This document shows positions 24,889 through 54,616 of a stretch of DNA of 64,000 nucleotides, one piece after another (the stretch's first letter is position 1; every line of letters starts with the position of its first letter). The DNA lies in NCBI RefSeq assembly GCF_002874775.1, contig NZ_CP020991.1, positions 1,431,225 to 1,495,224 of the forward strand, read 5' to 3'. Under the pieces are notes generated by a model, which was given only the letters and a program-made list of their open reading frames with translations, did no database searches and had not been told where the DNA came from. The translations under genes and the position numbers were made by a program. This DNA is from Monoglobus pectinilyticus. GTDB taxonomy: Bacteria > Bacillota > Clostridia > Monoglobales > Monoglobaceae.

Positions 24889-24936
24889 AATCCGCCGTAT
24901 ATTAACAAATATTTGTTGATATACGGCGGATTTTAT
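24889..24936 (+). terminator. Long palindrome acting as terminator
   Basis: The arms 24889-24910 and 24911-24932 are almost perfectly complementary over 22 bp (one G-U), with no spacer, and are followed by TTTTATATT. It closes the M13/EamA unit and is symmetric enough to work in both directions. Confidence 0.8.
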
Positions 24937-35194: not shown

Positions 35195-35723
35195 TTTTTA
35201 AATCTTTTAGAAATTCAGTTTCAAATTCGCTCATCCAGTCCAATAGTGAACTATACAGCGCTGCCTGCTGCTTAAATATAGTTCTGCCTGTCAGCGGAAT
35301 ATCCGAATACAATTCTGTATATTTTTTGTTATTTCCCTGAGCTTTTATAATATTATCTCTAATTTTATTGATAAGTTCCAGAGCTTTAGGTTTTGACATT
35401 TTATTTAAATTTGAAATAACAACATTAAAGTTTATTGGAATTGTTATTTCTTGTTCAGAATATTTTTCCATCAGCTCCTGAAAATATTCAATGCCCTTAT
35501 TGGTAATAGAATATATGGACTTTTCAGCGAATTTACCGTTTTTGACAACATCAGTCGTTAAATAATTTTTTTCTTTAAGAGTAATAACCTTTTTGTATAT
35601 TGATGGAGTGCTTATTTTTGTCCACCTGTCTAAATGGTGATATTCAACATCCTTTTGGATATCATAAGCGCTTTGGGGTTTTTCTGATACGATACCTAAA
35701 ATTATTAAATCAATCAGCGACAT
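35184..35723 (-). CDS. PadR-family transcriptional regulator
   Basis: A 179-residue regulator. The N-terminal winged helix-turn-helix is recognisable in LIDLIILGIVSEKPQSAYDI and TPSIYKKVITLKEKNYL, with the wing around KSIYSITNKGIEYFQEL. The C-terminal half (about 95-175) is the helical dimerisation domain of the longer PadR type. PadR proteins respond to phenolic or other aromatic compounds and commonly repress a neighbouring gene and themselves. Here a perfect palindrome lies inside its own promoter. The ATG at 35723 follows AAAGGAGG. Confidence 0.88.
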   Translation of the reverse strand: MSLIDLIILGIVSEKPQSAYDIQKDVEYHHLDRWTKISTPSIYKKVITLKEKNYLTTDVVKNGKFAEKSIYSITNKGIEYFQELMEKYSEQEITIPINFNVVISNLNKMSKPKALELINKIRDNIIKAQGNNKKYTELYSDIPLTGRTIFKQQAALYSSLLDWMSEFETEFLKDLKNGE

Positions 35724-38784: not shown

Positions 38785-39327
38785 ATGAAAGATTTAAAAG
38801 GTTCAAAAACAGAAGCAAACTTGCTTGCTGCATTCGCGGGAGAATCACAGGCTAGAAATAAGTATACTTATTATGCCAGCAAAGCAAGAAAAGACGGATA
38901 TGTTCAAATAGCAGAGATTTTTGAGGAAACTGCCAATAATGAAAAAGAACATGCAAAGATTTGGTTTAAGATTTTAAAAGGCGGAGAAATTCCTGATACA
39001 GCAACAAATCTTCAGGACGGCGTAGACGGCGAGAATTATGAGTGGACAGATATGTATGCCGGATTTGCTAAAACTGCAAAAGAAGAAGGATTTGATAAAA
39101 TTGCAGCTTTATTTGAGGGCGTTGCTAAAATTGAAAAGGAGCATGAGGAACGTTATAAAAAGCTTCTTGACAATGTAAAAGGCGAGTGCGTATTCTCAAA
39201 AGACGGAGACGTTATTTGGCAGTGTATCAACTGCGGTCATATTGTTATTGGCAAAAAAGCACCTGCTGTATGTCCGGTTTGTGCTCATCCTCAGGCATAT
39301 TTCCAGGTTAAGCCTGAAAATTATTAA
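38785..39327 (+). CDS. rbr: Rubrerythrin
   Basis: A 180-residue peroxide-reducing protein of anaerobes. The N-terminal ferritin-like domain binds a diiron centre through its glutamate/histidine helices ([43 protein letters not shown]). The C-terminal rubredoxin domain has CINCGH and CPVCAH. It detoxifies hydrogen peroxide, using NADH-linked donors. The ATG at 38785 gives the family start [10 protein letters not shown]; an ATG at 38740 also has a GGAG site but adds 15 unlike residues. It is closed by a terminator. Confidence 0.95.
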
Positions 39328-39392
39328 ATCATATTAAGTTTAGAGTAATTTTTGTTTTCATTCCTTTTAGAAAAATTATTAATAATTTAATT

Positions 39393-39429
39393 AAGACGAT
39401 ACTGATTTTATCCGGTATCGTCTTTTTTT
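39393..39429 (+). terminator. Intrinsic terminator after rubrerythrin
   Basis: AAGACGATAC (39393-39402) pairs perfectly with GTATCGTCTT (39415-39424), followed by TTTTTG. Confidence 0.88.
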
Positions 39430-39582
39430 GTTTTATCGCTGTATATTATATTATAAAAATAAGTTTGATTACGGATATATTGATAATTATTCTAATTTTA
39501 TAAAAATTGTAAATTATTTAATATTTGATATTGTGAAAAATTATCACAAATATAAACTGTAAAATATACATAGTAACTAAAA

Positions 39583-39640
39583 AAATAAAATTTATTTGTA
39601 TAGTTTTAATATTTACGAAATTTTGAACGAGTGTTATAAT
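39583..39640 (+). promoter_or_regulatory. Surface-regulon promoter cassette, copy A
   Basis: Palindrome AAATAAA-a-TTTATTT (39583-39597), 14 nt, -35 TTTACG (39612-39617), a 17-nt spacer, -10 TATAAT (39635-39640). The same geometry recurs at 46619, 48808 and 52335, although copy A is the most diverged outside these elements. It lies about 150 nt before the RCC1 gene and would serve three genes in line (39788, 42845, 45120). Confidence 0.75.
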
Positions 39641-39787
39641 GTTAAATAGATGATGTTACGAATATATGATATGCGTATCATGTGAATAATGACGAATAAA
39701 ATAAATAATTGGCGGTGTATTACTATGGTTTAAGCACAATTGATGCGGTGTGTGGTGAAACTTTAAAATTATAAAAAGGAGAAAGTT

Positions 39788-42700
39788 ATGAAAAAAACAA
39801 GGTTAATTAGTTCATTTATTTGTATTGTATTTATAACAACAATATTTTTTGGCGTATACGCTGCAAAACCGGGACAGGATGAACCAAAAAACATTGTTGA
39901 AACTGACATAAATTTGTCTGACGAACCGGAAGTCAGTCCCGGAACAGGCGATTCAATGCAGCAGCCGGAAATTTCTGCGGAACCTGAAGAAATTGCTGCT
40001 GAAAATGCTGAGGAAGAAAATGTTCAATCGGCCAGTCCTTCTCCGGAAGTAAACGATGAAGTTGATGAAGCCGAAGTGCCTGAAACGGAGATTAAACCTG
40101 AAACAGAACAACCGAAAGATGCAGAAGCCACTCCGGAAGTGTATATAAATGAAGACGGTGCGCCATTTATTGAAACGATTGAAAATACTGAGGCTCAAAT
40201 TGTAAATAATGACGGAGACGTTTTAGCTGTTGAAGATATTAGCGAAGAAGAAATTCAACCATATGAAACAAATGGTCAGGTTATGTTAATGAATGATTCT
40301 GATGTCGATTTAGAGTCAATAATTGATGTAAATATTGATATAAATTCAATAGAGCACAAAACAATTGTTACAGGAAATGACCACGTTCTTATGATTAATT
40401 CCGACGGTACTGTTTCTGCATGGGGCAGTAACACTTACGGTCAATTGGGAAATGGTACTAACACAAGCAGTATAGAGCCGGTAGTGGTTCAGGGGCTTTC
40501 AGATATTATAGAAGTAACAGCGGGCGATGGATATAGCTTGGCGATGGACAAAAACGGAGAAGTTTATTCTTGGGGCAGAAACAGCTGGGGAATGCTGGGA
40601 AACGGTAATACTTTAAATGCAAATATTCCAAATAAAATAAATGCTCTCAGCGGTTTAAATATAGTTAAAGTTTCAACCAGCGGTTATCATTGTTTAGCAC
40701 TTGCCAATAATGGTGATGTTTATTCTTGGGGAACAAATGGCAATGGACAGCTGGGATTAGGTGACAGAGAATATAAATTGGTTCCTACTATTATACAAAA
40801 CTTGCCGAGTTCAATTGATATAGCGGCTGCTGGTTTTTCAAGTTATGCGGTTGATATGACCGGAAGTGTATGGTCATGGGGAAACAATAACAGTTGCAAG
40901 CTGGGATTTACTTATAGCGGGGATATTTTGTCTCCTAACAAGACTGTTATAAAAGATATAGAATCAATATCAACGGGATATGACCATTGTTTAGCAATAG
41001 GTGAAGACGGAAATATTTATTCCTGGGGAGATAATGGATTCGGACAGCTCGGCGTCACAGGAATAACTACATATACGCCCCAGAAGCAGAATATTGGACT
41101 TTCAAATGTTAAAAATTCATTTAGCAAATGCCATCATAACGTGGCGGTTACATCTGACGGAAAAACTTATGCCTGGGGACGAAATGATTATGGGCAGTTG
41201 GGAATAGGAACAATATCGGACAAAGTTTTTGAACCAACATTAGTTTTTGAAAACTCATTTGAAACTGTAGCAATGGATATTTATTCGACGTATGCTGTAA
41301 GCAGTGACGGTAATTTATTTAAGTGGGGATATATGCCAAACACAGATATATCAAAGTATATAAGCGGCGGAAGCTGTGTTCCGCTTGATATACCCACTGA
41401 AACTCGGTTTGTACAAGTGGAAGCAAAACGTAACAGCGTTGTTGCTCTCGATGTAAATGGAGATGTATATACCTGGGGTGACGGAGCGTATGACGATTTA
41501 GGTCATGGGAATAAAGATAATGTATATTACCCTAAAAAGGTAGAGGGCTTGCCAAAGATTAAACAAGTGGCGAAAGGTGAGAATCATACTCTTGCTGTGG
41601 ATATAGATGGAAACGTATGGGGATGGGGCAACAATTCAAGCAAAGAGATAGATTATAATTATAGTGGTCATATAATTACACCTGTTAAATTAACTGAAAT
41701 TGATAATGTTGATTGTGTTTCTGCAGGGCAAGGGTTCAGCGCCGCAATAAAAGATGATAGTTCTCTTTGGACTTGGGGGCAAAACTATGCAGGTCAATTA
41801 GGTATAGGCGGTTCTAAAGTTAATAATGTTAATAAAATTTCTGGTATAGATTGTTTCCATTCCATAGTGGAATGCGGAGAGTCATATCTATTAACTCAAT
41901 ATCTTTATTCTAATAATGATGTAACTTACGATCCATATTCTCATCATTGCACCATGGCATGCGGAGCAAATAATCGTGGACAGTTGGGAAAAGGAGATTT
42001 AGTAAATTCTTCAGTTTTATCAAAAGTTCAGGATATAGAAGGGTATGAAGTAAAAGACTTGTCTGCCGGAAGAGAGCATGCTTTAGCATTATATTCTAAT
42101 GGAGATGTCTATTCGTGGGGGAGTAATACTATAGGCCAGCTTGGTCTTGGTGATAAGGTGGATAGAATGCTTCCGGTTAAAATACAGGGTATTTCAGACA
42201 TTAAATATATTGAAGCGGCATATGCGCATAGTATGGTTATAACAAATAGCGGAAATCTTTACGCATGGGGAGAAGGAAGAGACGGACAATTAGGTATAGG
42301 GATAAAAGAAACCAAAAGATTGCCTGTTTTAGTACAAGGGATAAAAAATGTTAGTTCGGTAACAGGAGGTTCTGCATTTAGTATTGCATTGGATGAAAAA
42401 GGCAGATTGTGGTCTTTTGGGTCAAATGCTTATGGACAGTTAGGTGTTATTAGCAGCGTTCCTGAAAAAATAGATCATGATACATTGTTTAGCAATACAT
42501 TAGTTTTTGATGTTAATGAAGGGGATTATTGTTCTATACCGTATGATGTTTTAAACGTTTCTGATTTTAGTGGTTTAGAGTTCAGTTTGAAATTTGATCC
42601 TCTGGATTTTGAAATAGTAGATGTTTGTGAGTTTACATTAGATAAAGAAGTTGGTACAGGAAATATTAACAATGCTAATGTATATATTACTAAAATTAAC

Positions 42701-42829
42701 GATGGCTATATGGCATTTAAGTCCACAATAGTGTCGACAGTTAAGTGGTCGGGAAATATAAATACTGTAAAAATAAAGGCGAAGAGAAATGGAAAGCTGT
42801 CTGTTGTATGCCGAGTAAAAAATAATTAG
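39788..42829 (+). CDS. Secreted RCC1-repeat beta-propeller protein
   Basis: A 1013-residue exported protein. Residues 1-26 are a signal peptide; about 30-165 form a Glu/Pro-rich acidic linker. From about 195 to 905 RCC1-type blades repeat, each with a WGxNxxGQLG core (WGSNTYGQLG, WGTNGNGQLG, WGDNGFGQLG and so on). I count fourteen, two of them degenerate, which fits two seven-bladed propellers in tandem. The last 110 residues look like a beta-sandwich domain (FSGLEFSLKFDPLDFEIVDV). Such proteins are thought to bind proteins or glycans outside the cell; no enzyme motif is seen. AAAGGAG precedes the ATG. It heads a likely three-gene unit. Confidence 0.88.
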   Translation: MKKTRLISSFICIVFITTIFFGVYAAKPGQDEPKNIVETDINLSDEPEVSPGTGDSMQQPEISAEPEEIAAENAEEENVQSASPSPEVNDEVDEAEVPETEIKPETEQPKDAEATPEVYINEDGAPFIETIENTEAQIVNNDGDVLAVEDISEEEIQPYETNGQVMLMNDSDVDLESIIDVNIDINSIEHKTIVTGNDHVLMINSDGTVSAWGSNTYGQLGNGTNTSSIEPVVVQGLSDIIEVTAGDGYSLAMDKNGEVYSWGRNSWGMLGNGNTLNANIPNKINALSGLNIVKVSTSGYHCLALANNGDVYSWGTNGNGQLGLGDREYKLVPTIIQNLPSSIDIAAAGFSSYAVDMTGSVWSWGNNNSCKLGFTYSGDILSPNKTVIKDIESISTGYDHCLAIGEDGNIYSWGDNGFGQLGVTGITTYTPQKQNIGLSNVKNSFSKCHHNVAVTSDGKTYAWGRNDYGQLGIGTISDKVFEPTLVFENSFETVAMDIYSTYAVSSDGNLFKWGYMPNTDISKYISGGSCVPLDIPTETRFVQVEAKRNSVVALDVNGDVYTWGDGAYDDLGHGNKDNVYYPKKVEGLPKIKQVAKGENHTLAVDIDGNVWGWGNNSSKEIDYNYSGHIITPVKLTEIDNVDCVSAGQGFSAAIKDDSSLWTWGQNYAGQLGIGGSKVNNVNKISGIDCFHSIVECGESYLLTQYLYSNNDVTYDPYSHHCTMACGANNRGQLGKGDLVNSSVLSKVQDIEGYEVKDLSAGREHALALYSNGDVYSWGSNTIGQLGLGDKVDRMLPVKIQGISDIKYIEAAYAHSMVITNSGNLYAWGEGRDGQLGIGIKETKRLPVLVQGIKNVSSVTGGSAFSIALDEKGRLWSFGSNAYGQLGVISSVPEKIDHDTLFSNTLVFDVNEGDYCSIPYDVLNVSDFSGLEFSLKFDPLDFEIVDVCEFTLDKEVGTGNINNANVYITKINDGYMAFKSTIVSTVKWSGNINTVKIKAKRNGKLSVVCRVKNN

Positions 42830-42844
42830 AGAGGGGTAATAATA

Positions 42845-45109
42845 ATGAAAGTTAAAATATATAAATATATTATAAGATTATTTACAGTATCGCTAGTTAG
42901 TATAATGGTTTTAAATATTATTAGTTTAGAAGTAGTTAAAGCGGCCCCTTTTTTTGATGTAAGGCAGACAATAACTCAGCCAAACGGCGATGTAATTGAA
43001 TGTTATACCAGCGGTGATGAGTTTTTCTCATACTTGCATGACAGCGATGGAAATATAATAGTGCAGAATACTCAGGGGCAATATGTTTATGCTAAATTAG
43101 AAAATAATATTATGGTTCCATCAGATAATGTTGTATTGCCAAGCGGAATTGCAATTTGTGATAAAATAAAGATTACTGATGTTCCGGAATCATATATAAA
43201 AATGATGCGTGAAGCATCTCCGTTTTATAAACAGCCAGAAGCTGAACTGGCTTTAAGCAATGATGAATATAAACTACATCCGTTTTTAAATGAAACATTA
43301 AATAATATAGTTATATTTATTAGTTTTTCCGATTTCGACTTTGATAAAGCCTATCCAGCATCATTTTATGAAAATTTATTTAATGGGGATGGAAATTCTT
43401 TAAAAAACTGGTTTGCCACGGCTTCTTATGGAAAAACTGGTGTTAACTCGTGGATATATCCCCAAATAGATGGCAATACATGTATTGCAAGTTATAAAGA
43501 TTATAAACCAAGAAGCGCATATGAGGGAACACCATATGTTGATAATAATGGTTCATTACAATATAGATTTATTAATGATGATGGGTCAGTTACTAACTGG
43601 AACGGTATGGCTTTTCCGCTTTTTGAAAGAGCAGTAAACTCAATAAAATCACAAGTGCCGTTAGATTTAGATCTTGATGTTGATAATGATGGTTGTATAG
43701 ATTATATTACTTTTGTTATGCCAGGAAGTATAGTATATGGTAATTGGATACTTCATCCGAACCAATTTTGTATGGCTGGTAATAAAACATTAAAAATTAA
43801 TGGTAAAAAAGTATATAATTATAATGTTCAGGTTGAAGAACAACTTCATGATACCAAATATGTACGGGCAGGGGTATTAGCGCATGAAGGGTTTCATATA
43901 TTTGGAGCTTATGATTTATATAGCGGAGCTAGCAATATTCATGAGTGGGATTTAATGTATTCACAAATGGGTCAAATGCCCAGCACATATACTAAATATA
44001 GATGTGGACAATGGATTGAAAATATACCTGAGATAAAAGAGAGTAAATCTTATTTTTTAAAAGAATCAATTTTGGATCCAAATAATTGTTATATGATTAG
44101 ATCTCCGTTATCTTCTGATGAAGCTTTCATTTTGGAATTTCGAAAAAAGGAGGGAATTTTCGATAATTATATACCTGGAACTGGATTAGTTATATATAGA
44201 GTTAATTTGAAGAATAATCATATATTAATAGACGATGATGATCCTGTGACCTGTTTTTATCCTTATAGAGATACTTCTGTTAATTTGCGATTAGGTGATG
44301 GTACTTATGCTGGAATAGAAATAAGTAATATATCACTTGTTGGAGATACGATTTCATTTTCAGTAAATATTTCTAACCAAAAAAATGCTTTATATTTTAA
44401 AGATATTAGAGTTGCACAAGCTATTAGTAAAGAAATAAATAAAGATATCAAAAATATAACAGAGGAGGATTTGACAAAAATTTCAGAATTATACATAAAT
44501 CCTGTTGATCAATTTGATTTACCTATAGATTTGGATGGCATTGATAAATTAGTAAGTTTACAGAAGATTACATTGGAAAGATGTAAATTAAATGATATAA
44601 GTAATTTGAAAGGATTAAAAAATTTATCGGAATTAAGATTAGTCGATAATAATATTGAAAATATTGAATCACTAAGAGATTTAAAATCATTGAAAATATT
44701 GACTCTTAGAGGCAATTTAATAAATGACTATTCACCGGTTTCCGGGTATTATAACAATTTAGTAGAAAAAGATTTTTCCTTATTGAATAACGATTTATAT
44801 ATTAGCATACCTAATATAAATACTAATAAAACAATAGAAACTATTTTTATAAACTGTACAGATTTTGTTCCTAAAAAAATGTATGTTACAGCTGAACGTT
44901 ATACTGAGGATGGAAAATTTATAAAACGTATTAGAATAGATAATGTTGATTTAAGTAATAAAAATACACAAATAAATATTCCTGAATTTATAAATTGTCA
45001 GGACGGATCATATGTTGTAATAAGTTGTTATGAACGTTGGGATTATAAGCAATTACTGGCGCGGAATGTAATAAAACCTGTAACATTTGATATGGAAAAT
45101 ACTTATTAG
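42845..45109 (+). CDS. Secreted M6-family metallopeptidase with leucine-rich repeats
   Basis: A 754-residue exported protein. A signal peptide (1-34) precedes an M6 (immune inhibitor A-like) catalytic domain with the zinc site H347-E348-x-x-H351-x-x-G-x-x-D in HEGFHIFGAYD. The domain runs to about residue 510 (TGLVIYRVN). An SDS22/internalin-like LRR segment follows (about 535-645: LQKITLERCKLNDISNLKGL, LRLVDNNIENIESL) and then a C-terminal beta domain. It likely digests extracellular proteins, with the LRRs directing binding. It lies 15 nt after the RCC1 gene and 11 nt before the next ATG, so the three genes are probably co-transcribed. Confidence 0.87.
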   Translation: MKVKIYKYIIRLFTVSLVSIMVLNIISLEVVKAAPFFDVRQTITQPNGDVIECYTSGDEFFSYLHDSDGNIIVQNTQGQYVYAKLENNIMVPSDNVVLPSGIAICDKIKITDVPESYIKMMREASPFYKQPEAELALSNDEYKLHPFLNETLNNIVIFISFSDFDFDKAYPASFYENLFNGDGNSLKNWFATASYGKTGVNSWIYPQIDGNTCIASYKDYKPRSAYEGTPYVDNNGSLQYRFINDDGSVTNWNGMAFPLFERAVNSIKSQVPLDLDLDVDNDGCIDYITFVMPGSIVYGNWILHPNQFCMAGNKTLKINGKKVYNYNVQVEEQLHDTKYVRAGVLAHEGFHIFGAYDLYSGASNIHEWDLMYSQMGQMPSTYTKYRCGQWIENIPEIKESKSYFLKESILDPNNCYMIRSPLSSDEAFILEFRKKEGIFDNYIPGTGLVIYRVNLKNNHILIDDDDPVTCFYPYRDTSVNLRLGDGTYAGIEISNISLVGDTISFSVNISNQKNALYFKDIRVAQAISKEINKDIKNITEEDLTKISELYINPVDQFDLPIDLDGIDKLVSLQKITLERCKLNDISNLKGLKNLSELRLVDNNIENIESLRDLKSLKILTLRGNLINDYSPVSGYYNNLVEKDFSLLNNDLYISIPNINTNKTIETIFINCTDFVPKKMYVTAERYTEDGKFIKRIRIDNVDLSNKNTQINIPEFINCQDGSYVVISCYERWDYKQLLARNVIKPVTFDMENTY

Positions 45110-45119
45110 GAGGATTGAC

Positions 45120-46343
45120 ATGAAAAAAGTGCTTACTGTTATACTAATTATTATATTTTCTTTAAGTTTTAACTTAGTTGTTTTTTCTTATGGGACACCA
45201 CTGATATTAGTGAAGTATGTAGATTCATCAATATATTTGACAGAGTATTTTGACGAAGGAAAGGAATTAGAAATCTCAGTATCTAACATAGATGAAGTAT
45301 GCAGTTTACTTATAGTAAGCTATGATATAAATGATTGTTTAATAAACTGTATAGTTAAAGAAAATATAAATTCTGACTGTTTAGAAAAATATCTTCCGCC
45401 TAATAATACTGATATGATAAAAGTATTTATTTGGGATAATAAAAATAATATTTCGCCGAAATGTGTAGGAAATACTTTATATAAATCTATTAATTATGAG
45501 AAACCCATTGGAAACGGAACTGATGAGAGTCCTTACAAAGTTACCTCCGTTGCCGAATTGTCTTATTTGAGAGAAGAGCCTGGAGCTGCTTATATACTTG
45601 CTAACAATATTGATTTAAGTGATGTTAGGTGGAATCCGTTTTTCTTTTGCGGAAAACTTGATGGCCTTAATAATAGTATTACAGGGATAAAGGTAGCTGA
45701 TAATGCTCATAACAGCGGTTTGTTTTCTAAATTTGAAAATCGCACTCGGAATGAGGGATTAATTGATGTACCTTTGGATAGTTATATTAAAAATTTAAAT
45801 GTGGAAATATTGGATAGTGGTAGTTCAGCTGTTTTTTCCGGTGGTATTGCTGGTGAACTGGGATTTTATATGCCATTGATAGAAAATTGTTCGGTTAAAG
45901 GTAATATTACTGCAAGAAGCAAACAACAGGGTGTTAAAGCATGTGCCGGAGGAATTGCAGGTATCAGCCCAAATACAAATATAAATATGTGCTCTAGTAC
46001 TGCAAATATTGCTTCATATGGTATTGATAGAGCAGTATCCGGGGGGATTGTAGGAGAGTTCCAGGAAAACCCTGCCATACATTTTTATGCATCCATTAAT
46101 AATTGTTCGGCAAGCGGTCAGATTTTTTCAAAGTGCAGTAATTTAGAAAGTGGAGATATAGTGGCTTCAGGTGGAATATGCGGTTATTTTTATGGAAATT
46201 TTAATTATATAGAAAACTGTATATCAAATACACAGTTATATTCTGATAAATCTGCAGGCGGTATAGTAGGTGAAGCGATTGATAATGAGGCTTTTAATAG
46301 AATTGAAAATTGTATAGATAATTCTGTAGTTGTAAAATATTAA
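45120..46343 (+). CDS. Secreted protein with the shared VW module and GLUG-type repeats
   Basis: A 407-residue exported protein. A signal peptide (1-23) is followed by the small domain shared by this cluster (about 27-125, ending DMIKVFIWDNKNNISP). A beta-helix-like region with GLUG-type motifs follows (GNGTDESPYKVTSVAEL, FFCGKLDGLNNSITGI, NSGLFSKF, CSVKGNI, GGIAGE). GLUG repeats occur in surface adhesins and in domains near IgA peptidases. ATG 45120 follows TAGGAGG; an earlier in-frame ATG overlaps the M6 gene. It is the last gene of the unit started by promoter copy A. Confidence 0.78.
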   Translation: MKKVLTVILIIIFSLSFNLVVFSYGTPLILVKYVDSSIYLTEYFDEGKELEISVSNIDEVCSLLIVSYDINDCLINCIVKENINSDCLEKYLPPNNTDMIKVFIWDNKNNISPKCVGNTLYKSINYEKPIGNGTDESPYKVTSVAELSYLREEPGAAYILANNIDLSDVRWNPFFFCGKLDGLNNSITGIKVADNAHNSGLFSKFENRTRNEGLIDVPLDSYIKNLNVEILDSGSSAVFSGGIAGELGFYMPLIENCSVKGNITARSKQQGVKACAGGIAGISPNTNINMCSSTANIASYGIDRAVSGGIVGEFQENPAIHFYASINNCSASGQIFSKCSNLESGDIVASGGICGYFYGNFNYIENCISNTQLYSDKSAGGIVGEAIDNEAFNRIENCIDNSVVVKY

Positions 46344-46528
46344 TTAAATTTAGTAAATTAATTGAATATTTTGTGATGTGGTTATCGTGTATGCTGTAAA
46401 AAATGTATTTATGGCAATCAAAACAAAAAATGATATGTATAGCTAGGATAATGAAAATAGTATAATAAGATATATAAAAGTAAGAAGTAAGAAGTGAGAA
46501 TTAAAATAATAAATTTAAAATTTTTTAT

Positions 46529-46565
46529 AAGCAATAGTCTAAAATATTAGACTATTGCTTTATAT
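46529..46565 (+). terminator. Intrinsic terminator after the first GLUG-type gene
   Basis: A 14-bp perfect stem (46529-46542 with 46547-46560) and a 4-nt loop, followed by TATATTTG. It lies 185 nt after the stop. Confidence 0.75.
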
Positions 46566-46585
46566 TTGTAAAATAATATGTAGTT

Positions 46586-46676
46586 GAGAAAATAATTCAC
46601 CTGTCGAAATTACTAAAAAAATAAACTTTATTTGGTTATTATTAATCTTTACGAAATATAGAATGAGAGTTATAAT
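46586..46676 (+). promoter_or_regulatory. Surface-regulon promoter cassette, copy B
   Basis: Palindrome AAATAAA-c-TTTATTT (46619-46633), 14 nt, TTTACG (46648-46653), 17 nt, TATAAT (46671-46676). The sequence from GAGAAAATAATTCACCTG at 46586 to the -10 is nearly identical to copy C and very similar to copy D. It drives the LRR gene at 46873. Confidence 0.85.
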
Positions 46677-46872
46677 ATAAATGTGGATGCAGGAAACGCA
46701 ATTCCTGTAGGGAAAGGAGATATAATTACGAAAAATTTGTTGTAGGTTTTAATGTTTGTGAGTTCCTTATGCTTTTGGTTATAATCGAAGGGTTTGTCAA
46801 TAATTTTAGAAGTTCAGAAGAGGTTATGAACCATGCTTGGGAAAACATAATAAATAGTGAGGAGTTGGTACA
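46677..46872 (+). other. Leader after copy B with a vestigial start site
   Basis: At 46715-46732 AAAGGAGATATAATT is followed by ACG-AAA-AAT. This aligns with AAGGAGGCAATATTT-ATG-AAA-AAG at the start of the gene behind copy D. The position thus looks like an old ribosome binding site with its ATG changed to ACG, followed by a stop after four codons. Downstream it also matches the leader after copy C (TAGGTTT...TGTTTGT). Confidence 0.45.
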
Positions 46873-48696
46873 ATGAAAAAATGCTGTGTAGTTTTTTTAA
46901 CTGTTATTATAATACTGTCAAACTTTTCTTTAAACGTTTTTTCTGCTGAAAGCTCTATTGAGTTTGAGCATTCATGGGAGAAGACCGCTATAATAAATTC
47001 ATTAAAAAAATCTATGCCGGAGAAATATGGTAACTATGATGAAAATAGTGATATTTATCTTAGTGACTATAAAAATATAATCTATTTGGAATATTCAGAT
47101 GGTAGATGGCCTTGGTCTGAAATGAATACTATAAAGTATTTAGATAAAATGATCAATTTAGAGGAGTTAACAGTTAAAGGATATGTTATGACAAAATTAG
47201 ATTTAAGCAAAAATAAAAAGTTAAGAAAACTAACATGTTCTATGAATGCGCTGTCTGAACTAGACCTAAGCAATAATCCGGAACTTATAGAACTTGATTG
47301 CAAGTACAATAATTTAAAGAAACTTGACTTAAGCAACAATAATAAGATAGAATCGGTTGACTGTTCGCAAAACTGGATAGAAGATATTAATGTTAGTAAT
47401 TGTATAAATTTATATAACTTGCAGTGTTCAGAAAATTGCTTGAGAGATATAAATATTGACCCTCAAATCGGTTGGGAAGCGCCGGAGGAGAAGACGCCTG
47501 TAATTAACATATCACAGAATTATATTGATTCTGAAAACAATGAAATACTTAGTGAAAAGCTTGAAGATTTAAAAGTGAAATTAAAGTCCAAATCGGGAAA
47601 TGTTTTATGGGGAACTGGATATGGAGATTCTCCTGATTCATTGGTAAAACTTGATCCGAGTTTTGAATATGAGCTTATGCAAATGTACCAGAATATTAGT
47701 TCGGATCCAATGGATTGGTCATTTACCAGGGAGGGTTTAAGTAAGTTTACTGATTTATATTTTATGACATATGTTGAACTGCTTATGCCTATATTGAATT
47801 TATCAGGTATAGAATGTTTTACCAATCTAACATCGTTGTCATCAGAGTATGATATAAAAATCAGAGAACTTGACTTAAGTCAAAATAAAAAGTTGAAAAA
47901 TTATGGAATAAAAGCAAGTAAATTAGAAAATTTGATATTTAAAGATAACACTGAAATTTTATCATTATATTGTCCAAATGGCAGTTTAACAAATTTGGAT
48001 CTAAGCGGATGTATAAACCTGACTTCGTTGGATTGTAGTAATAATAATTTAAGTGAATTGGATCTAAGCTCTACACCAGGTTTAAGTATTTTAAAATGTT
48101 CAAATAATATTCTTAAAACTTTAGATGTTTCAAATAATATAAGGTTATTTTATTTTATGTGTAACGATAATGAAATTAATAATCTAATATTAAGTGAAAA
48201 TGCAGAGTGGAAAAAACCGGATCATTCAAATTATTCACCTGTGTTTGATATACATAATAACTATCTTGATATATCAGACGGTTCACAGCTTAAAGAAAAA
48301 CTAAGTATTATTGAACCCAAAATAATGTCTGGAGGAACAGAACAAAATCCTGCACAGTTTATTTATTCGCCGCAAAAAGGGGACGGTATTTGTTGGTCAT
48401 TATCATTAACGAATGAAAATGGTATAATAAAATGTATAGCTGAAAATGTAGCAAACAAAAGTCAAAATAGTTCATTAATTTTATCTTATTACAGTGAAGA
48501 TGAAATATTGGAATATACAGAAATTAAAAATATTGTTGCAGGTATAGGAGAAAGTATTATTGTTGATGCAGATATTCCGGAAAGTAAGAAAGATAGTATA
48601 AAAACAATAAGAGCGTTTGTATGGAATAACATAGAACAAATGAGTGCAGAATCGATGTATTCAGAGTTTATCGTAGATAAAACAACAAATAAATAG
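46873..48696 (+). CDS. Secreted leucine-rich repeat protein with a C-terminal VW module
   Basis: A 607-residue exported protein with a signal peptide (1-25). Two blocks of LRRs of the bacterial LDLSxNxxLxxLDC type occur (about 95-185 and 325-435: LDLSKNKKLRKLTCSMNALSEL in part, LDLSGCINLTSLDCSNNNL). The C-terminus (about 500-600) is the shared cluster domain ending IRAFVWNNIEQMSAESM. No catalytic motif is seen, so binding to a protein or glycan is the likely role. GAGGAG precedes the ATG. It is a single gene between promoter copy B and a terminator. Confidence 0.85.
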   Translation: MKKCCVVFLTVIIILSNFSLNVFSAESSIEFEHSWEKTAIINSLKKSMPEKYGNYDENSDIYLSDYKNIIYLEYSDGRWPWSEMNTIKYLDKMINLEELTVKGYVMTKLDLSKNKKLRKLTCSMNALSELDLSNNPELIELDCKYNNLKKLDLSNNNKIESVDCSQNWIEDINVSNCINLYNLQCSENCLRDINIDPQIGWEAPEEKTPVINISQNYIDSENNEILSEKLEDLKVKLKSKSGNVLWGTGYGDSPDSLVKLDPSFEYELMQMYQNISSDPMDWSFTREGLSKFTDLYFMTYVELLMPILNLSGIECFTNLTSLSSEYDIKIRELDLSQNKKLKNYGIKASKLENLIFKDNTEILSLYCPNGSLTNLDLSGCINLTSLDCSNNNLSELDLSSTPGLSILKCSNNILKTLDVSNNIRLFYFMCNDNEINNLILSENAEWKKPDHSNYSPVFDIHNNYLDISDGSQLKEKLSIIEPKIMSGGTEQNPAQFIYSPQKGDGICWSLSLTNENGIIKCIAENVANKSQNSSLILSYYSEDEILEYTEIKNIVAGIGESIIVDADIPESKKDSIKTIRAFVWNNIEQMSAESMYSEFIVDKTTNK

Positions 48697-48710
48697 AAAA
48701 TTTAATCTAG

Positions 48711-48745
48711 CACGAGTCATAATACACATTATGGCTCGTGTTATT
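48711..48745 (+). terminator. Intrinsic terminator after the LRR gene
   Basis: A 13-bp perfect stem (48711-48723 with 48728-48740) and a 4-nt loop, followed by TTATTTT. Confidence 0.85.
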
Positions 48746-48774
48746 TTAAGTAAAGAATTAATTTAAAATGAAAA

Positions 48775-48865
48775 GAGAAAATAATTCACCTGTCGAAATT
48801 ACTAAAAAAATAAACTTTATTTGGTTATTATTAATCTTTACGAAATATAGAATGAGGGGTATAAT
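48775..48865 (+). promoter_or_regulatory. Surface-regulon promoter cassette, copy C
   Basis: Palindrome at 48808-48822, 14 nt, TTTACG (48837-48842), 17 nt, TATAAT (48860-48865). It is almost identical to copy B across the whole 90 nt. It drives the gene at 49081 after a leader of about 215 nt, which holds a micro-ORF ATG-GTA-AAA-CAT-TAG at 48919-48933. Confidence 0.85.
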
Positions 48866-49080
48866 ATAAATGGTGTTATATGAAATGTGTTTCTGATATT
48901 GGAGAGGAAATTTTAATTATGGTAAAACATTAGCTTTAGGTTTATTTGTTTGTATGGTTTATTATATTTATAGAGTATTTAAATATTTTCGGGGCGGTAA
49001 TCAATATTTATATTTGGTGAATAATAATACATTCTCAGTAATATTTAAAAAATATAACTTACTAAAATAGGAGAAAATAT

Positions 49081-50142
49081 ATGCGTAAAAAATTTATTTA
49101 CATAATAATTATTGTAATATTATTTTGTACTGTACAAGATGTTTGTGCCGCTTCGGGGTATAACTATATATCTATACGCTATGATAATAATGTTGCCGCG
49201 GATTGTATAAAACCAAACAGGGTATTAGAAATATCTGTAAATGATTTCAGGGAATATAACGATGAGATTTTATATGTTGCACAGTATGATAAGAATGATG
49301 TCTTGGTTGCGCTTGATTCAGTTGAAGCAAAAGTATCTAAGAAGCTGCAGATAAAACCGGATGAAAGCGTTGAGAAAGTCAGAGCTTTTCTTTGGAGCCC
49401 ATCTATTCAGCCGGTTTACGCTCAAAATGAGTTAGAAAAAATAAGTGCAGAAAACTTGCCAAAAGGCAGCGGAACACATGAAGACCCTTATAGAATAACG
49501 ACGCCGGATGAATTAAAATATATGTTTGTAGAAAATCATCAAGTGTATAAATTGATGAATGATATTGATTTAAGCAATGAAACGTGGTATCCAAAGGCGT
49601 TTCTCGGTGTATTGGATGGCGGAGGTCGTTCCATTTTGGGATTATCTGTTGATCAGAATTCAGAGTACAGCGGCTTGATTTCGATATTAGGTGATTCATA
49701 CTTTTCGGCGTGCAGTATCAAAAATTTAAATATAGAAATTAAAAATTCAGCTCAGAATGCAAAATATAGTGGAGCAGTTGCAGGTTATATGTGGTTCCCG
49801 GCTCAGATTATAAATTGTAATATTTCAGGGACAATCGTATCAAATACAGATGAATCATACATAGGCGGTGTATCGGGGTATACTTACGGGGGAGAAATAC
49901 AAAATTGTAATGTTAATATGTCTTTACTCGCAATGAAAGGTGAAACAGTTTGTGTTGGAGGTATTTTCGGCGGTGCGTTTCCTTGGGTAAATAACCATTA
50001 TACAATAATAAAAGACAGTAATACAAAAGGCACAATAGCATATTATTCTCCAAAGAACAAAGTGGGTGGTATATGCGGAGATGTGGTAGATACAATAATA
50101 GAAAATTGTACTGATGATATGAGTTTGATTAATAATTACTAA
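49081..50142 (+). CDS. Secreted protein with N-terminal VW module and GLUG-type repeats
   Basis: A 353-residue exported protein with the same layout as the product of 45120: signal peptide (1-24), shared domain (about 28-118, ending EKVRAFLWSPSIQPVYAQ), then GLUG-type beta-helix repeats (GSGTHEDPYRITTPDEL, FLGVLDGGGRSILGLSV, YSGLISILGD, AGYMWFPAQIINCNISG). The two genes are probably paralogs. AGGAG lies 7 nt before the ATG. The next gene follows only after a terminator-like hairpin. Confidence 0.8.
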   Translation: MRKKFIYIIIIVILFCTVQDVCAASGYNYISIRYDNNVAADCIKPNRVLEISVNDFREYNDEILYVAQYDKNDVLVALDSVEAKVSKKLQIKPDESVEKVRAFLWSPSIQPVYAQNELEKISAENLPKGSGTHEDPYRITTPDELKYMFVENHQVYKLMNDIDLSNETWYPKAFLGVLDGGGRSILGLSVDQNSEYSGLISILGDSYFSACSIKNLNIEIKNSAQNAKYSGAVAGYMWFPAQIINCNISGTIVSNTDESYIGGVSGYTYGGEIQNCNVNMSLLAMKGETVCVGGIFGGAFPWVNNHYTIIKDSNTKGTIAYYSPKNKVGGICGDVVDTIIENCTDDMSLINNY

Positions 50143-50208
50143 ATGGTAGTTTGTAAATGATTATATGTTTGAAAAAACAGAAATATTTATTAATGACTGA
50201 ATTGTATT

Positions 50209-50255
50209 TATAGCGCGTGGAGGCGGTCGTATATGCGCTATAATATTGTTTTTTG
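50209..50255 (+). terminator. Intrinsic terminator after the second GLUG-type gene
   Basis: TATAGCGC (50209-50216) pairs with GCGCTATA (50235-50242), then ATATTGTTTTTTG. No copy of the promoter cassette was found before the next gene. Confidence 0.7.
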
Positions 50256-50317
50256 TTAGTATAATGCTGTTTCGTAACAATGTGATTAAATAGCGTTTTG
50301 TGTTAGGAAGTGATTTT

Positions 50318-52222
50318 ATGAAATATTTTATCAAAGTAATGTCCCTTACTTTTGTTTTACTGTTTTGTTTTATTTGTTCAATGCCAAAAATAACGGCGGA
50401 AGAAACCGGAGCTATTAATATTGAACATGCTTTTATTAATGATTATTATCCGGTTGTTGGGGAGAGAATTTATGTAAAAGTTTATACAAGTGACATTTTT
50501 GATATTCCGGCCAACGATACTGAGGAGAGTTTCTCATATCAGTGGTATAAAAATGATGTGAATTCAAATAATGGCGGCGTACCATTGGCTGGCGCTGAAG
50601 AAAAATATTATATTCCGCTGAGTGAGGATGCAGGAAGCTATCTATATTGTAAGGTGACGGGTAATGGTAAATATACCGGAGAAATCATCACCGGACCGAC
50701 ATGTAGCGCTGTGGAAAAAACAGCGGAAATAGGCGGAGCATATATAGTCGAAAATAGAAACAGTATTCCAAAGCTCGGACAAGAGATAATAGGTTGTTTG
50801 TTTAGATATGGCTCTGTTGTTTTTGATGATTATTTATATCCTGCCAAAACACCGGTTGATACTGCTATATATGGCGATGAAGTTGCAGAATATCAATGGT
50901 ACAGAACAAAGGAAGAGAACAACACAGGCGGAGAGCCAATTGTTGGCGCTAATTCATATAAGTTTACTCCAACGTCAGAAGACTATGGTTTTCATTTGTA
51001 TTTTACTGCATCGGGAAAAGGCGGGTATTTTGGAAGCGTAACTTCAAATGTAACATCGTATCCTATTTCTATTGTTGATGGCGGAGGAGGAAGCGGAGAT
51101 GGATATTTTCCGTTATCATTAAGTATTGAAGGCGCCGCAGTAAATCACGCTGTTTTGACAACTGATAAATACAGCTGGGTTAAATATCAATGGTATAGAA
51201 ATGATTTTGCTGAAAACAGCGGAGGAACGCCTATACCGGGTGCTACATTTTATAAGTATACTGTAACGGCTGAAGACGTGGGCAAATATTTATATGTTGC
51301 AGTAAAAAAGACAGAGGATGACAAAACCGAATCCGTTGTCTCTCCTGTGACTGATATGATATCAAATACATCGGTTGAATTGTTAAATGTTATAATCGAA
51401 AAAGGTGATAAATCAAATCCTAAACGTCATATAAAACTGACTTCTGAATCATCTATGCCCAAAAATGCGACAGCAACAGTGCAGTGGTACAGAAATGATG
51501 TTATGAGCAATTCAGGAGGCGAGCCTATATTGGGGGCAAGTTATTCATCTTATACTCCGACCTTGTATGATGTTGGGAAATATCTATATTGTGTCTATAC
51601 GCCAGTATTTCCATTTACCGGTAAGCCTGTGTATTCTGAGGTTACAGCCGCAGTAGAAAATACAGCAACAGTGTTTTTTGATTCTAATGGCGCTGATAGT
51701 GGAATAGGTTGTGAGGATATAGAAATTGGAGGGACAATAGAAAATATAGATACATTTGTTCTTGAAAGAGAAGGATATGAATTTATAGGATGGGGAACGG
51801 CACCTGATAAAAATGTATCTGATTTTGACAAAAATACTATTGTTGAAAATGACATTACACTATATGCTTTATGGAATAAAATAATATGCAGTCCTGAACC
51901 GACTTCTGATGTTAATCCATCTCCGGGCAAAGTCCCCAATATAATATTGAGATATACTGATAATGGAGATTTAGTAACTAAAAATTTTGTGACAAACAGA
52001 GAAATTGAGATTTTGCTGGAGCAGAATAAGAATCTTTATTCGCTTTACGTTGTAAGTTATGATAAGAATGGCATGTTAAAAAACTGCAAATATTTGGATG
52101 AGTGTGATTCTGAATGTTCATTATTATATATTGCAGATGATGATTCTTATACGCTGAAAGTATTTTTGTGGGAAGATATGAAATCTGTGTTGGATTGTAT
52201 TGTTCTGAGCAGATTTGAATAA
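50318..52222 (+). CDS. Secreted protein with four Ig-like repeats, an InlB-type repeat and a VW module
   Basis: A 634-residue exported protein. A signal peptide (1-28) is followed by four repeats of an Ig-like domain with the pattern QWYRND...GG.PI.GA....Y.PT..D.G.YLY (cores at QWYKNDV, QWYRTKE, QWYRNDF and QWYRNDV). An InlB B-repeat/Flg_new unit follows (about 440-515: ATVFFDSNGADSGIG, GYEFIGWGTAPDKN, ITLYALWNK), and the C-terminus is the shared domain ending LKVFLWEDMKSV. It is probably an adhesin or wall-associated binding protein. ATG 50318 follows AGGAAGTG; the longer frame from 50300 lacks a site. Confidence 0.82.
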   Translation: MKYFIKVMSLTFVLLFCFICSMPKITAEETGAINIEHAFINDYYPVVGERIYVKVYTSDIFDIPANDTEESFSYQWYKNDVNSNNGGVPLAGAEEKYYIPLSEDAGSYLYCKVTGNGKYTGEIITGPTCSAVEKTAEIGGAYIVENRNSIPKLGQEIIGCLFRYGSVVFDDYLYPAKTPVDTAIYGDEVAEYQWYRTKEENNTGGEPIVGANSYKFTPTSEDYGFHLYFTASGKGGYFGSVTSNVTSYPISIVDGGGGSGDGYFPLSLSIEGAAVNHAVLTTDKYSWVKYQWYRNDFAENSGGTPIPGATFYKYTVTAEDVGKYLYVAVKKTEDDKTESVVSPVTDMISNTSVELLNVIIEKGDKSNPKRHIKLTSESSMPKNATATVQWYRNDVMSNSGGEPILGASYSSYTPTLYDVGKYLYCVYTPVFPFTGKPVYSEVTAAVENTATVFFDSNGADSGIGCEDIEIGGTIENIDTFVLEREGYEFIGWGTAPDKNVSDFDKNTIVENDITLYALWNKIICSPEPTSDVNPSPGKVPNIILRYTDNGDLVTKNFVTNREIEILLEQNKNLYSLYVVSYDKNGMLKNCKYLDECDSECSLLYIADDDSYTLKVFLWEDMKSVLDCIVLSRFE

Positions 52223-52249
52223 GCGACATATTTTTTGATAAACTAGAGA

Positions 52250-52295
52250 AACTGCGCCTAAAAAGCTGAATGCTTTTGAAGGTGCAGTTTTTTAT
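52250..52295 (+). terminator. Intrinsic terminator after the Ig-like gene
   Basis: AACTGCGCCT (52250-52259) pairs with AGGTGCAGTT (52280-52289, one G-U) with AAAAGC/GCTTTT inside, followed by TTTTAT. Confidence 0.85.
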
Positions 52296-52307
52296 ATAAG
52301 TGTGATA

Positions 52308-52392
52308 ATAATTCACCTGTCGAAATAACTAAAAAAATAAACTTTATTTGGTTATTATACATCTTTACGAAATATGGAATGAGGGATATAAT
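52308..52392 (+). promoter_or_regulatory. Surface-regulon promoter cassette, copy D
   Basis: Palindrome at 52335-52349, 14 nt, TTTACG (52364-52369), 17 nt, TATAAT (52387-52392). It differs from copies B and C at only a few positions. The gene starts 53 nt after the -10, the shortest leader of the four. Confidence 0.85.
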
Positions 52393-52444
52393 ATAAATAT
52401 GTTAACAGGAAATATATTTCTGTGTTTATAAGGAGGCAATATTT

Positions 52445-54385
52445 ATGAAAAAGTTCATATTTTTATCGCTTTTTGCAACAACTATAATTTCTATATTTTC
52501 TTCAGTTTCATATGCGTATAATGTAATACCGCTTGATATTAATTTCCCGGAAAAACGGGTTATCAAGGTGCTGCATGATGATGCAGAAAGTCCTTCTCCA
52601 ACACCGACTCAGGGATGTACATATCTTCCTATATACGGAAAATACGGAGTTTTAAGTTATGAAATAAGAGACGGAATAGTGAAAATATTGTCGTGTGATG
52701 AATCTGCTGCTGGTGAGATTGATATACCTAATGAAATAGAGGGATATCCGGTAACTGAGCTAGCAGATTGGTTATTTAGTTATTTTAAAGAAATAAGCGG
52801 AATAAGAATTCCGGCTAATGTATCGGATATAGATAAAAACGTCTTTTTTGACTGTAATGGTTTAAATAAAATTGAAGTTGATGAATTGAATAGATGTTTT
52901 AGTTCTGATAATGGTGTGTTGTTTAATAAGGCAAAAACGAAGTTGATTCAGTATCCTGTCGGAAAAACTGATGTTGAATATACTGTGCCAGAGGGAGTAA
53001 CAACCATAGGAGATTATTCGTTTTTTTCCTGTGTGAATTTAAATAATATAAAAATGCCAAGAGAATTAAAGACTATTGAAAAAGGCGCTTTTAAAGAATG
53101 TACGGATTTAGATAATGTTGAGATACCAAAAGGAGCGACATATATAGGGGGACAAGCTTTTCATGGTTGTGGTGGCTTAAATCAAATAGTAATTTCTGAA
53201 ACGGTTACAAATATTGATATGGACGCTTTTAACGGCTGTGACAATTTAACCATATATGGAATTGCAAATTCATATGCAGAGAAATATGCAAATGAAAATG
53301 GTATTAATTTTAGTGCTTTAGAAGAATTTATTGTAGAAAATGGAGTTTTGATAGAATATAATGGTTCAGGCGGTGATATAGTTATACCCGGTGATATGAG
53401 AATAACATCAATCGGAAAATACGTATTTTGTAATAATCAAAGTATTACATCTGTAAAAATCCCGGACGGAATTGAACTTATAGGAGATGGAGCTTTTATG
53501 GAATGTACTAATTTAAAAAGTGTGTCTTTTCCTACAAATTATTTTCGTATTGCTCCATATGCGTTTGGAGGGGCGGGATTTATAACTCTTAAATATCCCA
53601 AAAATTGTAGCGGAGGAAATTGGGCTTTTTACTGTTGTGAAAATCTTAAAGAAATAATTGTTGAAGAGGGAGTGACATCCTTATCAACAGGTTTGTTCGA
53701 TGGTTGCAGTTCCTTAAAAACGGTAACCTTGCCAAGCACTTGCACGTTTATTTTACCAGCGTTTAAAAATTGCGATAACTTAACGGAAATAATTTTATCT
53801 GATGGAATACCTAAAGTGTTGAACGGTATTTTTTACAAATGTTCGGCAATTAAAAAAATATATATTCCGGACAGTGCAACTGAAATTGAGTCGGGGGCAT
53901 TTACTGACTGTGAATCACTGGAAGCGATAGTGGTTCCAAATAGTGTAACTCAGATAGAAGAAAATGTAATAACAAATTGTGATAAGGCTGTAATATATTC
54001 TGAGCCGGATGCTTATGCAAGAAAATATGCGGAGGCAAATAATATTCCTTGGGCTGATATAAAGACCTTAAACGGAGGGTGGAATTGGGAAACATCAATA
54101 GAGAAAGGTGAAGATAAAGAAAATACGTATATATGTACCGCAAAAAATGTGAGTACCGGAAAGAAAACGGGGGAGTTTATATTGGCATATTATGATGAAT
54201 TTGGAAATATGCTTGGAAGTGAGATTAAGGATTTGAATAGGAATTCAGGAGAAAAGGAAACAATATGTATAACAATACCAATTGGTGATATGTCAAAAGT
54301 AAAAACGATAAAAGCATTTGTATGGGATAGTCTTGCAAATATGAATGCGGTATCACAATATGCAGAGTGTATTATAAATAATTAG
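52445..54385 (+). CDS. Secreted BspA-type (LRR_5) leucine-rich repeat protein with VW module
   Basis: A 646-residue exported protein with a signal peptide (1-24). Residues about 75-530 are LRR_5/BspA-like repeats (VTTIGDYSFFSCVNLNNIKMP, LKTIEKGAFKECTDLDNVEIP, VTNIDMDAFNGCDNL, ATEIESGAFTDCESLEAIVVP, all typical). The C-terminus (about 540-646) is the shared domain ending IKAFVWDSLANMNAVSQYAE. BspA-type proteins of gut and oral bacteria bind host or bacterial surfaces, a possible role here. AAGGAGG precedes the ATG. It is the last gene of the cluster, followed by a terminator. Confidence 0.86.
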   Translation: MKKFIFLSLFATTIISIFSSVSYAYNVIPLDINFPEKRVIKVLHDDAESPSPTPTQGCTYLPIYGKYGVLSYEIRDGIVKILSCDESAAGEIDIPNEIEGYPVTELADWLFSYFKEISGIRIPANVSDIDKNVFFDCNGLNKIEVDELNRCFSSDNGVLFNKAKTKLIQYPVGKTDVEYTVPEGVTTIGDYSFFSCVNLNNIKMPRELKTIEKGAFKECTDLDNVEIPKGATYIGGQAFHGCGGLNQIVISETVTNIDMDAFNGCDNLTIYGIANSYAEKYANENGINFSALEEFIVENGVLIEYNGSGGDIVIPGDMRITSIGKYVFCNNQSITSVKIPDGIELIGDGAFMECTNLKSVSFPTNYFRIAPYAFGGAGFITLKYPKNCSGGNWAFYCCENLKEIIVEEGVTSLSTGLFDGCSSLKTVTLPSTCTFILPAFKNCDNLTEIILSDGIPKVLNGIFYKCSAIKKIYIPDSATEIESGAFTDCESLEAIVVPNSVTQIEENVITNCDKAVIYSEPDAYARKYAEANNIPWADIKTLNGGWNWETSIEKGEDKENTYICTAKNVSTGKKTGEFILAYYDEFGNMLGSEIKDLNRNSGEKETICITIPIGDMSKVKTIKAFVWDSLANMNAVSQYAECIINN

Positions 54386-54413
54386 AAAATAAATAAAATG
54401 ATTTCTTCCCAAT

Positions 54414-54447
54414 CAAGAGCCTGATATTTTCAGGCTCTTGTTATTTT
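54414..54447 (+). terminator. Intrinsic terminator after the BspA-type gene
   Basis: CAAGAGCCTG (54414-54423) pairs perfectly with CAGGCTCTTG (54431-54440), then TTATTTTT. Confidence 0.88.
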
Positions 54448-54616
54448 TAATTAGAATAAATTGGTCATACTCTATAGATTTTATAGGTTGGCATATATAC
54501 TAAAAATATACATATGTTATTTATATAATAATCCAATCTAATATAATAAACTTCAATATATTTTATGTCATTTCTTTAAAATTTCAGTAATCAATTTAAG
54601 AGGATTTATGCTTAAC

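Follow-up and report, generated by a model that had tools for sequence, protein, structure and literature searches.

Four near-identical promoters in a secreted-protein gene array of Monoglobus pectinilyticus: putative UP-like elements and possible sites of unit loss

Why does one bacterial locus carry the same palindrome four times, each time at the same distance from the same promoter? The question arises in a window (the whole stretch of DNA that was analysed) of 64,000 nucleotides from Monoglobus pectinilyticus, contig NZ_CP020991.1, positions 1,431,225 to 1,495,224 of the forward strand. A preliminary description took the palindrome for a regulator binding site and the genes behind the four copies for a surface-protein regulon. 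We find a local array of four transcription units and not a genome-wide surface-protein regulon. In our preferred reading, to which we give a probability of about 0.6, the palindrome would be part of an UP-like promoter of a tandemly multiplied secreted-protein gene, and the promoter copies would act as recombination sites. The four cassettes are as follows.

39576-39647, plus strand: block that cassette A has in common with cassette B; palindrome 39583-39597, -35 box 39612-39617, -10 box 39635-39640
46586-46684, plus strand: cassette B; palindrome 46619-46633, -35 box 46648-46653, -10 box 46671-46676
48775-48873, plus strand: cassette C; palindrome 48808-48822, -35 box 48837-48842, -10 box 48860-48865
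52304-52397, plus strand: cassette D; palindrome 52335-52349, -35 box 52364-52369, -10 box 52387-52392

The palindrome AAATAAANTTTATTT has exactly four matches in the window, at 39583, 46619, 48808 and 52335, where the preliminary description had placed them. With one mismatch allowed, six sites were found; the mean for shuffled sequences was 0.47, and six or more sites occurred in 0 of 100 shuffles. The promoter boxes, TTTACG-N17-TATAAT, also matched four times (39612, 46648, 48837 and 52364; shuffle mean 0.04). The gaps of 14 nt from palindrome to -35 box and of 17 nt from -35 to -10 box, reported earlier as fixed, proved exact in 4/4 copies. The transcription start was assumed to lie 7 nt after the -10 box, and all promoter positions given here count from there. 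The palindrome then spans -64 to -50 with its centre at -57, so that only its downstream edge reaches the position near -50 that had been proposed for it. It is perfect, and identical in all copies except for the centre base. It lies within a 23-nt AT-tract element, ACTAAAAAAATAAAnTTTATTTG, at about -71 to -49, of which 22 positions are invariant across the four copies. This invariant element is asymmetric: beyond the palindrome arms it extends by seven more bases on the left and by one on the right. The left-hand bases, ACTAAAA, are the same in all four copies.

Cassettes B and C share 82 consecutive identical nucleotides (46586-46667); over 94 nt their identity is 98%. B and D are 93% identical over 95 nt. 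Copy A had been thought to keep only palindrome, spacing and boxes. This was too narrow, as A matches B at 85% over 65 bp and retains ACTAAAA as well as 12-13 of the 17 bases in the spacer between the -35 and -10 boxes. The block conserved between A and B corresponds to about the -71 to -10 region; outside it, 17 of 48 upstream and 5 of 20 downstream positions are alike. The four copies are homologous by descent and therefore do not count as four independent events.

Further copies were sought in the genome as a whole, a single contig of 2,757,678 bp. When as many as three mismatches were allowed, the full pattern had four sites, all at this locus and within 12.8 kb, and the reversed-pattern control gave 0 sites. 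A sequence profile found the same four copies. By blastn these scored E 2e-14 or better, and the next match had E ≥ 0.01; two weak matches, at 1057105 (E 0.011) and 1823938, were AT-rich stretches without a promoter and were rejected. The exact palindrome occurs four times in the genome, all at this locus. A tolerance of one mismatch gave 30 sites versus 18 for the reversed-pattern control. None of the 26 one-mismatch palindromes has a promoter at the cassette spacing (25 were examined on both strands, the last on one strand), and 11 of them lie inside mechanical open reading frames (ORFs) of at least 80 amino acids. At gaps of 11-18 nt, the best promoter-like pair reached at most 8/12 in 25 of these sites; the site at 1141030 (minus strand) reached 10/12 with a gap of 18 and a spacer of 16. 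Three of the five genome ORFs with GLUG motifs lie elsewhere and have no cassette, and the same holds for two of the three ORFs similar to the BspA-type gene of unit D (E ≤ 1e-20).

Relatives showed weak, partial matches only. In profile searches, in which the four copies score 63.8-75.5 bits, 22 of 50 other genomes of the order had weak matches at E ≤ 0.1 (best 19.9 bits) and 22 of 390 other genomes of the class had them at E ≤ 0.01 (best 20.9 bits); stricter filters were used here, by which weak matches are lost. The blastn matches listed for 59 relatives covered at most 53 nt at E ≥ 2.9e-4. A looser pattern found seven stretches among 84,980 species, a set from which records of the window's own genome were possibly left out; 0/7 had TTTACG and 0/7 had the left-hand ACTAAAA. 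No match was found in viral contigs with the exact core pattern or in phage records. Because the genome holds only four copies and the relatives searched only weak partial matches, the regulon suggested earlier gives way to a local array, and the conserved copies hoped for in relatives did not appear. Anyone who set out from this site to find a novel global regulator would probably be unsuccessful.

The array itself contains five strong terminators (z -5.8 to -9.7) that bracket four units with seven genes.

39393-39424, plus strand: terminator before cassette A, z -6.2
39788-42829, plus strand: g1, unit A, secreted RCC1-repeat protein by domain match, with the N-terminus judged by eye
42845-45109, plus strand: g2, unit A, M6-metalloprotease-like protein (TIGR03296, E 1.6e-20) with a weak leucine-rich repeat (LRR) match
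45120-46343, plus strand: g3, unit A, GLUG-motif protein
46529-46560, plus strand: terminator before cassette B, z -6.6
46873-48696, plus strand: g4, unit B, secreted LRR protein, with LRR_4 just below cut-off; not in strain 2 (see below)
48708-48743, plus strand: terminator before cassette C, z -9.7
49081-50142, plus strand: g5, unit C, GLUG-motif protein
50318-52222, plus strand: g6, unit C, secreted protein with immunoglobulin (Ig)-like and Listeria-Bacteroides repeats; mechanical ORF start 50300
52246-52293, plus strand: terminator before cassette D, z -7.9
52445-54385, plus strand: g7, unit D, secreted BspA-type LRR_5 protein
54414-54440, plus strand: terminator after unit D, z -5.8

For g2, both the TIGR03296 (M6) match and the Pfam LRR match are below the curated cut-off. 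All seven products have signal-peptide-like N-termini as judged by eye, which agrees with the earlier view that secreted repeat-protein genes stand behind the copies; there are, however, seven genes in four units, not four genes. Pfam and NCBIfam scans of the array proteins reported no wall-anchor domain, and “secreted” is therefore safer than “surface”. Proteins with common domains (g3-g5, g3-g6, g5-g6 and g4-g7) are 30-33% identical, compared with 93-98% for cassettes B to D. The promoters have thus been conserved or homogenised to a much greater degree than the genes. The GC content in 44000-49999 is 28-30%, against 36% in the window. Each copy follows a terminator and precedes genes with signal-peptide-like starts, which makes it plausible that the four units are controlled together.

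A second strain, M. pectinilyticus TSDC17.2-1.2 (NZ_OY725739.1, a draft found in the PLSDB plasmid collection; strain 2), shows what can happen between two cassettes. This sequence matches 87% of 39000-54600 at 98.6% identity. It carries g1, g2, g3, g5, g6 and g7, and g4 is absent from the locus. The features concerned are the following.

46586-48774, plus strand: unit B counted from repeat to repeat, 2,189 bp, lacking in strain 2; the ends are set where the identical stretch begins on its left
46586-46667, plus strand: 82 nt identical between B and C, containing the strain-2 junction

Between g3 and g5, strain 2 has a single cassette. To its left it is B-type at 18 of 18 differing sites (46560-46585), and to its right it is C-type at 10 of 10 (46668-46699); the exchange therefore took place inside the 82 identical nucleotides. 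A junction inside a repeat, with markers of the left and right copy on either side, is the arrangement expected of repeat-mediated gene loss, seen here in a draft assembly. The hybrid cassette has palindrome, boxes and spacing intact. In the flanks (41700-46667 and 48775-50024; about 6,200 positions), strain 2 and the window differ at four sites, not counting 46668 and 46670, which are marker sites for B against C. Strain divergence over the wider locus is about 2%, and so the event looks recent. The strain-2 contig runs unbroken through the junction. No match to g4 was found in the plasmid collection, which holds only part of the strain-2 assembly. We read the difference as a loss of unit B by deletion, although a gain by insertion would look the same. 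Despite the PLSDB label of plasmid, NZ_OY725739.1 carries ftsZ and its sister NZ_OY725740.1 carries fusA and other genes of the window; given these housekeeping genes, both are probably chromosomal contigs.

We propose the following explanation. An ancestral secreted-protein gene may have been multiplied in tandem within one 15-kb locus, the cassette being its promoter end. Each copy would be a sigma-A-type promoter with a weak -35 box (TTTACG), a perfect -10 box and the 23-nt AT-tract as upstream element, which would aid RNA polymerase directly, through an UP-like contact with the alpha C-terminal domain or through bent DNA. Four separately terminated secreted repeat-protein units would thus have similar expression. 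Behind the copies, coding regions would have diverged or been exchanged, with the promoter left in place. Neighbouring copies are nearly identical and point in the same direction, and homologous recombination between them could therefore remove or add a whole unit; the gene that follows would keep an intact promoter.

We consider it most likely that the palindrome is part of an AT-rich, UP-like element upstream of the promoter boxes. An UP element is expected to show AT-rich sequence at about -60 to -40, conserved together with the promoter; the AT-tract element here, at about -71 to -49 on the assumed start, agrees with this. In Bacillus subtilis, genes dependent on the alpha C-terminal domain have AT-rich sequence centred at -43 and -53, according to the available text of PMC4495994, and the available text of PMC9655642 describes one Bacillus UP element with protection from -57 to -85. 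The cassettes resemble these cases, as far as those texts go, in having AT tracts upstream of a weak -35 box, conserved with the promoter and overlapping in position (PMC4495994, PMC9655642), but differ in that a perfect 7-1-7 inverted repeat lies at -64 to -50.

The new point, drawn from one second, draft strain, is that promoter copies would serve as recombination sites for the gain and loss of units. We suggest only tentatively that selection maintains them for two purposes, to drive expression and to provide crossover sites within a modular array of secreted proteins. If this holds, homologous recombination of the ordinary kind could delete, add or exchange whole terminator-bounded units between strains without disrupting the expression of the remaining ones, and a gut commensal would have a promoter-anchored way to vary its secreted repeat proteins. 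A gut pectin specialist would then reshuffle RCC1, LRR, GLUG and Ig-type proteins without a site-specific recombinase, and every unit would still have the same promoter in front of it. The reading predicts where differences between strains should break, and TTTACGAAATNTNGAANGAGNGNTATAAT could be looked for in gut metagenome assemblies to count unit orders across people.

How the copies arose was studied in the leaders. B and C are homologous beyond the promoter, over 179 alignment columns at 82%, and B-D homology reaches 10 nt past the g7 start codon; for C and D, the alignment past that codon came from the leader-only test alone. B, C and D are near-identical, as noted earlier, but their homology extends further than the 85-90 nt given there. 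When only leaders were aligned, shuffles did as well in 3/500 cases for B-C, 12/500 for C-D and 36/500 for B-D. Leaders B and C both contain an apparent relic of a gene start.

46728-46745, plus strand: apparent relic gene start in leader B, with ACG for ATG and a stop at the sixth codon
48919-48933, plus strand: apparent relic gene start in leader C, with ATG and a stop at the fifth codon

The present genes of B and C start 145 and 162 nt beyond these relic starts. B, C and D thus appear to go back to an old tandem duplication of promoter plus gene, in which the coding parts of B and C later decayed and were replaced. An Rfam scan of the window gave 0 matches at gathering thresholds, so the leaders contain no known riboswitch. 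The idea of a hairpin shared by all four leaders was rejected: B alone folds clearly better than shuffles (z -2.2), with z -0.15 for C, -0.8 for D, and -0.8 (56 nt) and +0.65 (146 nt) for A. No RNA element is therefore claimed.

Several results weigh against our explanation. Leader A has no homology to the other three leaders (382, 238 and 114 of 500 shuffles reached the score), so A may have another history. The palindrome lies slightly upstream of the usual UP subsites (-53). Repeat collapse in the strain-2 draft could mimic a deletion, and the junction is documented in one second strain only. In addition, the palindrome is perfect in 7/7 copies of the two strains, and between A and B the palindrome plus boxes are better kept (26/27) than the two spacers (22/31; Fisher p = 0.014). 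Both of these would also fit an operator.

The palindrome could accordingly be the operator for a dimeric regulator, so far undescribed, that serves only the four promoters of the locus. We regard this as unlikely, although a perfect site that varies between copies at its centre alone, and is kept together with the boxes, speaks for it. So do the strain differences at cassette D: there are none in the 64 nt from 52293 to 52356, which include box and palindrome, and nine in the next 36 nt, 52357-52392 (p = 5e-5), among them a change of the -35 box from TTTACG to TTTGCG. Around cassette D, 78 strain substitutions fall in four bins at 51775-52774; D thus lies in a local divergence peak, and a recombination boundary, rather than selection, could have produced the contrast. 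In strain-2 cassette A one change was found, in the spacer between the -35 and -10 boxes, and the palindrome is unchanged in 3/3 strain-2 cassettes. As a separate observation, the divergence peak at D stands beside about 8 kb of near-identity (41700-50024) around B and C, a strain mosaic that looks as if tracts had been exchanged.

Of an operator one would expect conservation that is symmetric about the dyad. The arms are invariant, but seven further invariant bases adjoin them on the left and one on the right, an asymmetry that counts somewhat against this reading. Selection on a binding site, as first proposed, would fit the better conservation of palindrome and boxes than of spacers, but the asymmetric, AT-tract-like element suits an UP-type site equally well or better. 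No regulator gene lies in the array, and the genome has no further exact palindrome. Six neighbouring proteins were scanned, and the nearest regulator in the scanned stretch is PadR-like (35184-35723); it forms an operon with a partner gene, and nothing connects it with the palindrome. The PadR-like gene overlaps a DUF2992 (YjdF) gene (window 34772-35723); no yjdF riboswitch was found in the window by Rfam at gathering score. Operators of the Fur family (Fur, PerR, Zur) have a 7-1-7 inverted repeat layout with arm consensuses TGATAAT or TTATAAT. The layout here is alike, but the arm AAATAAA agrees at 4/7 positions with the Fur and PerR consensuses by eye, which argues against membership.

Control of units B, C and D by Spo0A, with the palindrome secondary, is rather unlikely as the explanation, and it would be compatible with the other readings. 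A perfect TGTCGAA core, at about -81 to -75, lies upstream of the -35 box in three cassettes.

46602-46608, plus strand: TGTCGAA, Spo0A-box core, cassette B
48791-48797, plus strand: TGTCGAA, Spo0A-box core, cassette C
52318-52324, plus strand: TGTCGAA, Spo0A-box core, cassette D

These are three of the six such motifs in the window (both strands). TGTCGAA is the core bound by Spo0A of C. difficile, as stated in the available text of PMC3485338, and two Spo0A proteins are encoded in the genome. Copy A, however, differs from Spo0A-controlled promoters in having no TGTCGAA box, the three boxes amount to one coincidence in copies from one ancestor, and no sporulation gene was recognised in the array. 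The two Spo0A genes (266 amino acids each) are at genome positions 299213-299524 (minus strand) and 2358690-2359001 (plus strand), and their products differ, by eye, in the first 60 residues only. One presumably follows spoIVB, judging by the look of the preceding ORF, and the other lies elsewhere.

The cassettes might also be the plain residue of a recent tandem duplication, in which palindrome and repeats have no special role beyond chance. In favour of this, the homology of B, C and D extends far past the promoter, and any direct repeat can recombine. We consider this reading improbable, since promoters at 93-98% identity stand before coding parts that are unrelated or share 30% identity, the A-B block stops close to where the promoter does, and cassette D has 0/64 against 9/36 strain differences.

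The surface-layer genes of Campylobacter fetus have shared 5′ regions; the likeness to the present array is that several surface or secreted-type genes stand behind near-identical, recombining 5′ regions. An invertible phase switch or mobile promoter element, which near-identical promoters before different secreted genes recall (PMC11852207, available text), is very improbable here, because all copies have the same direction with none inverted and none elsewhere in the genome, no inverted repeat of at least 30 nt was found in 39000-54600 at the settings used, and each copy stands in the same place between terminator and gene. The C. fetus surface-layer genes and Mycoplasma vsa are inversion systems according to the same available text (PMC11852207). 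The M. pectinilyticus array differs in having direct repeats, a promoter and terminator for each unit, loss and gain instead of switching, and no recombinase seen in the array.

The neighbourhood of the array was compared within the genus. The ROK gene that adjoins it is present in 8 of 11 other genus genomes (E ≤ 1e-60). In these eight, the array-side stretches next to ROK (1.9 to 20 kb; four contigs end within 12 kb) were compared, on the ROK side only, by blastp of ORFs of at least 90 amino acids against the window ORFs at 1e-5; in one of the eight, a filter masked the ROK ORF itself. Nothing like g1-g6 was found there at this threshold; besides ROK there was one g7-like ORF (25%, about 17 kb away, in one genome). 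At E ≤ 1e-20, all 11 genomes have g7-like proteins and none has a match to g2. In one open-access library, nothing was found on M. pectinilyticus surface layer homology or leucine-rich repeat surface proteins, and nothing relevant on such half-site palindrome promoters in Clostridia or on repeat deletion.

Some minor observations remain. A TTGTGA-N7-TCACAA inverted repeat, seen by eye, lies at 39531-39549, some 100 nt before the assumed transcription start of unit A; it does not occur in B, C or D and may be a separate site or due to chance. Seventeen stretches (5 from this genome, 12 from relatives) were compared for repeated intergenic segments, and many dispersed repeats, but no established second promoter family, were among the matches listed. 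One of them (window 12004-12090) recurs at about 74-80% likeness at several genome places among the matches listed. A 2.4-kb ORF-free stretch (L195, 4051-6453) consists of direct and inverted copies of the dispersed repeat, which L196 and L197 carry as well. A 44-nt near-perfect inverted repeat (95%) lies at 24889-24932, in the gap before a gene at 25047. A large gene that starts at about 57330 runs off the window, and in strain 2 it corresponds to a 7,290-nt gene for a protein of the pectinesterase family; a one-mismatch palindrome without a promoter lies about 300 nt upstream of it, at 57028.

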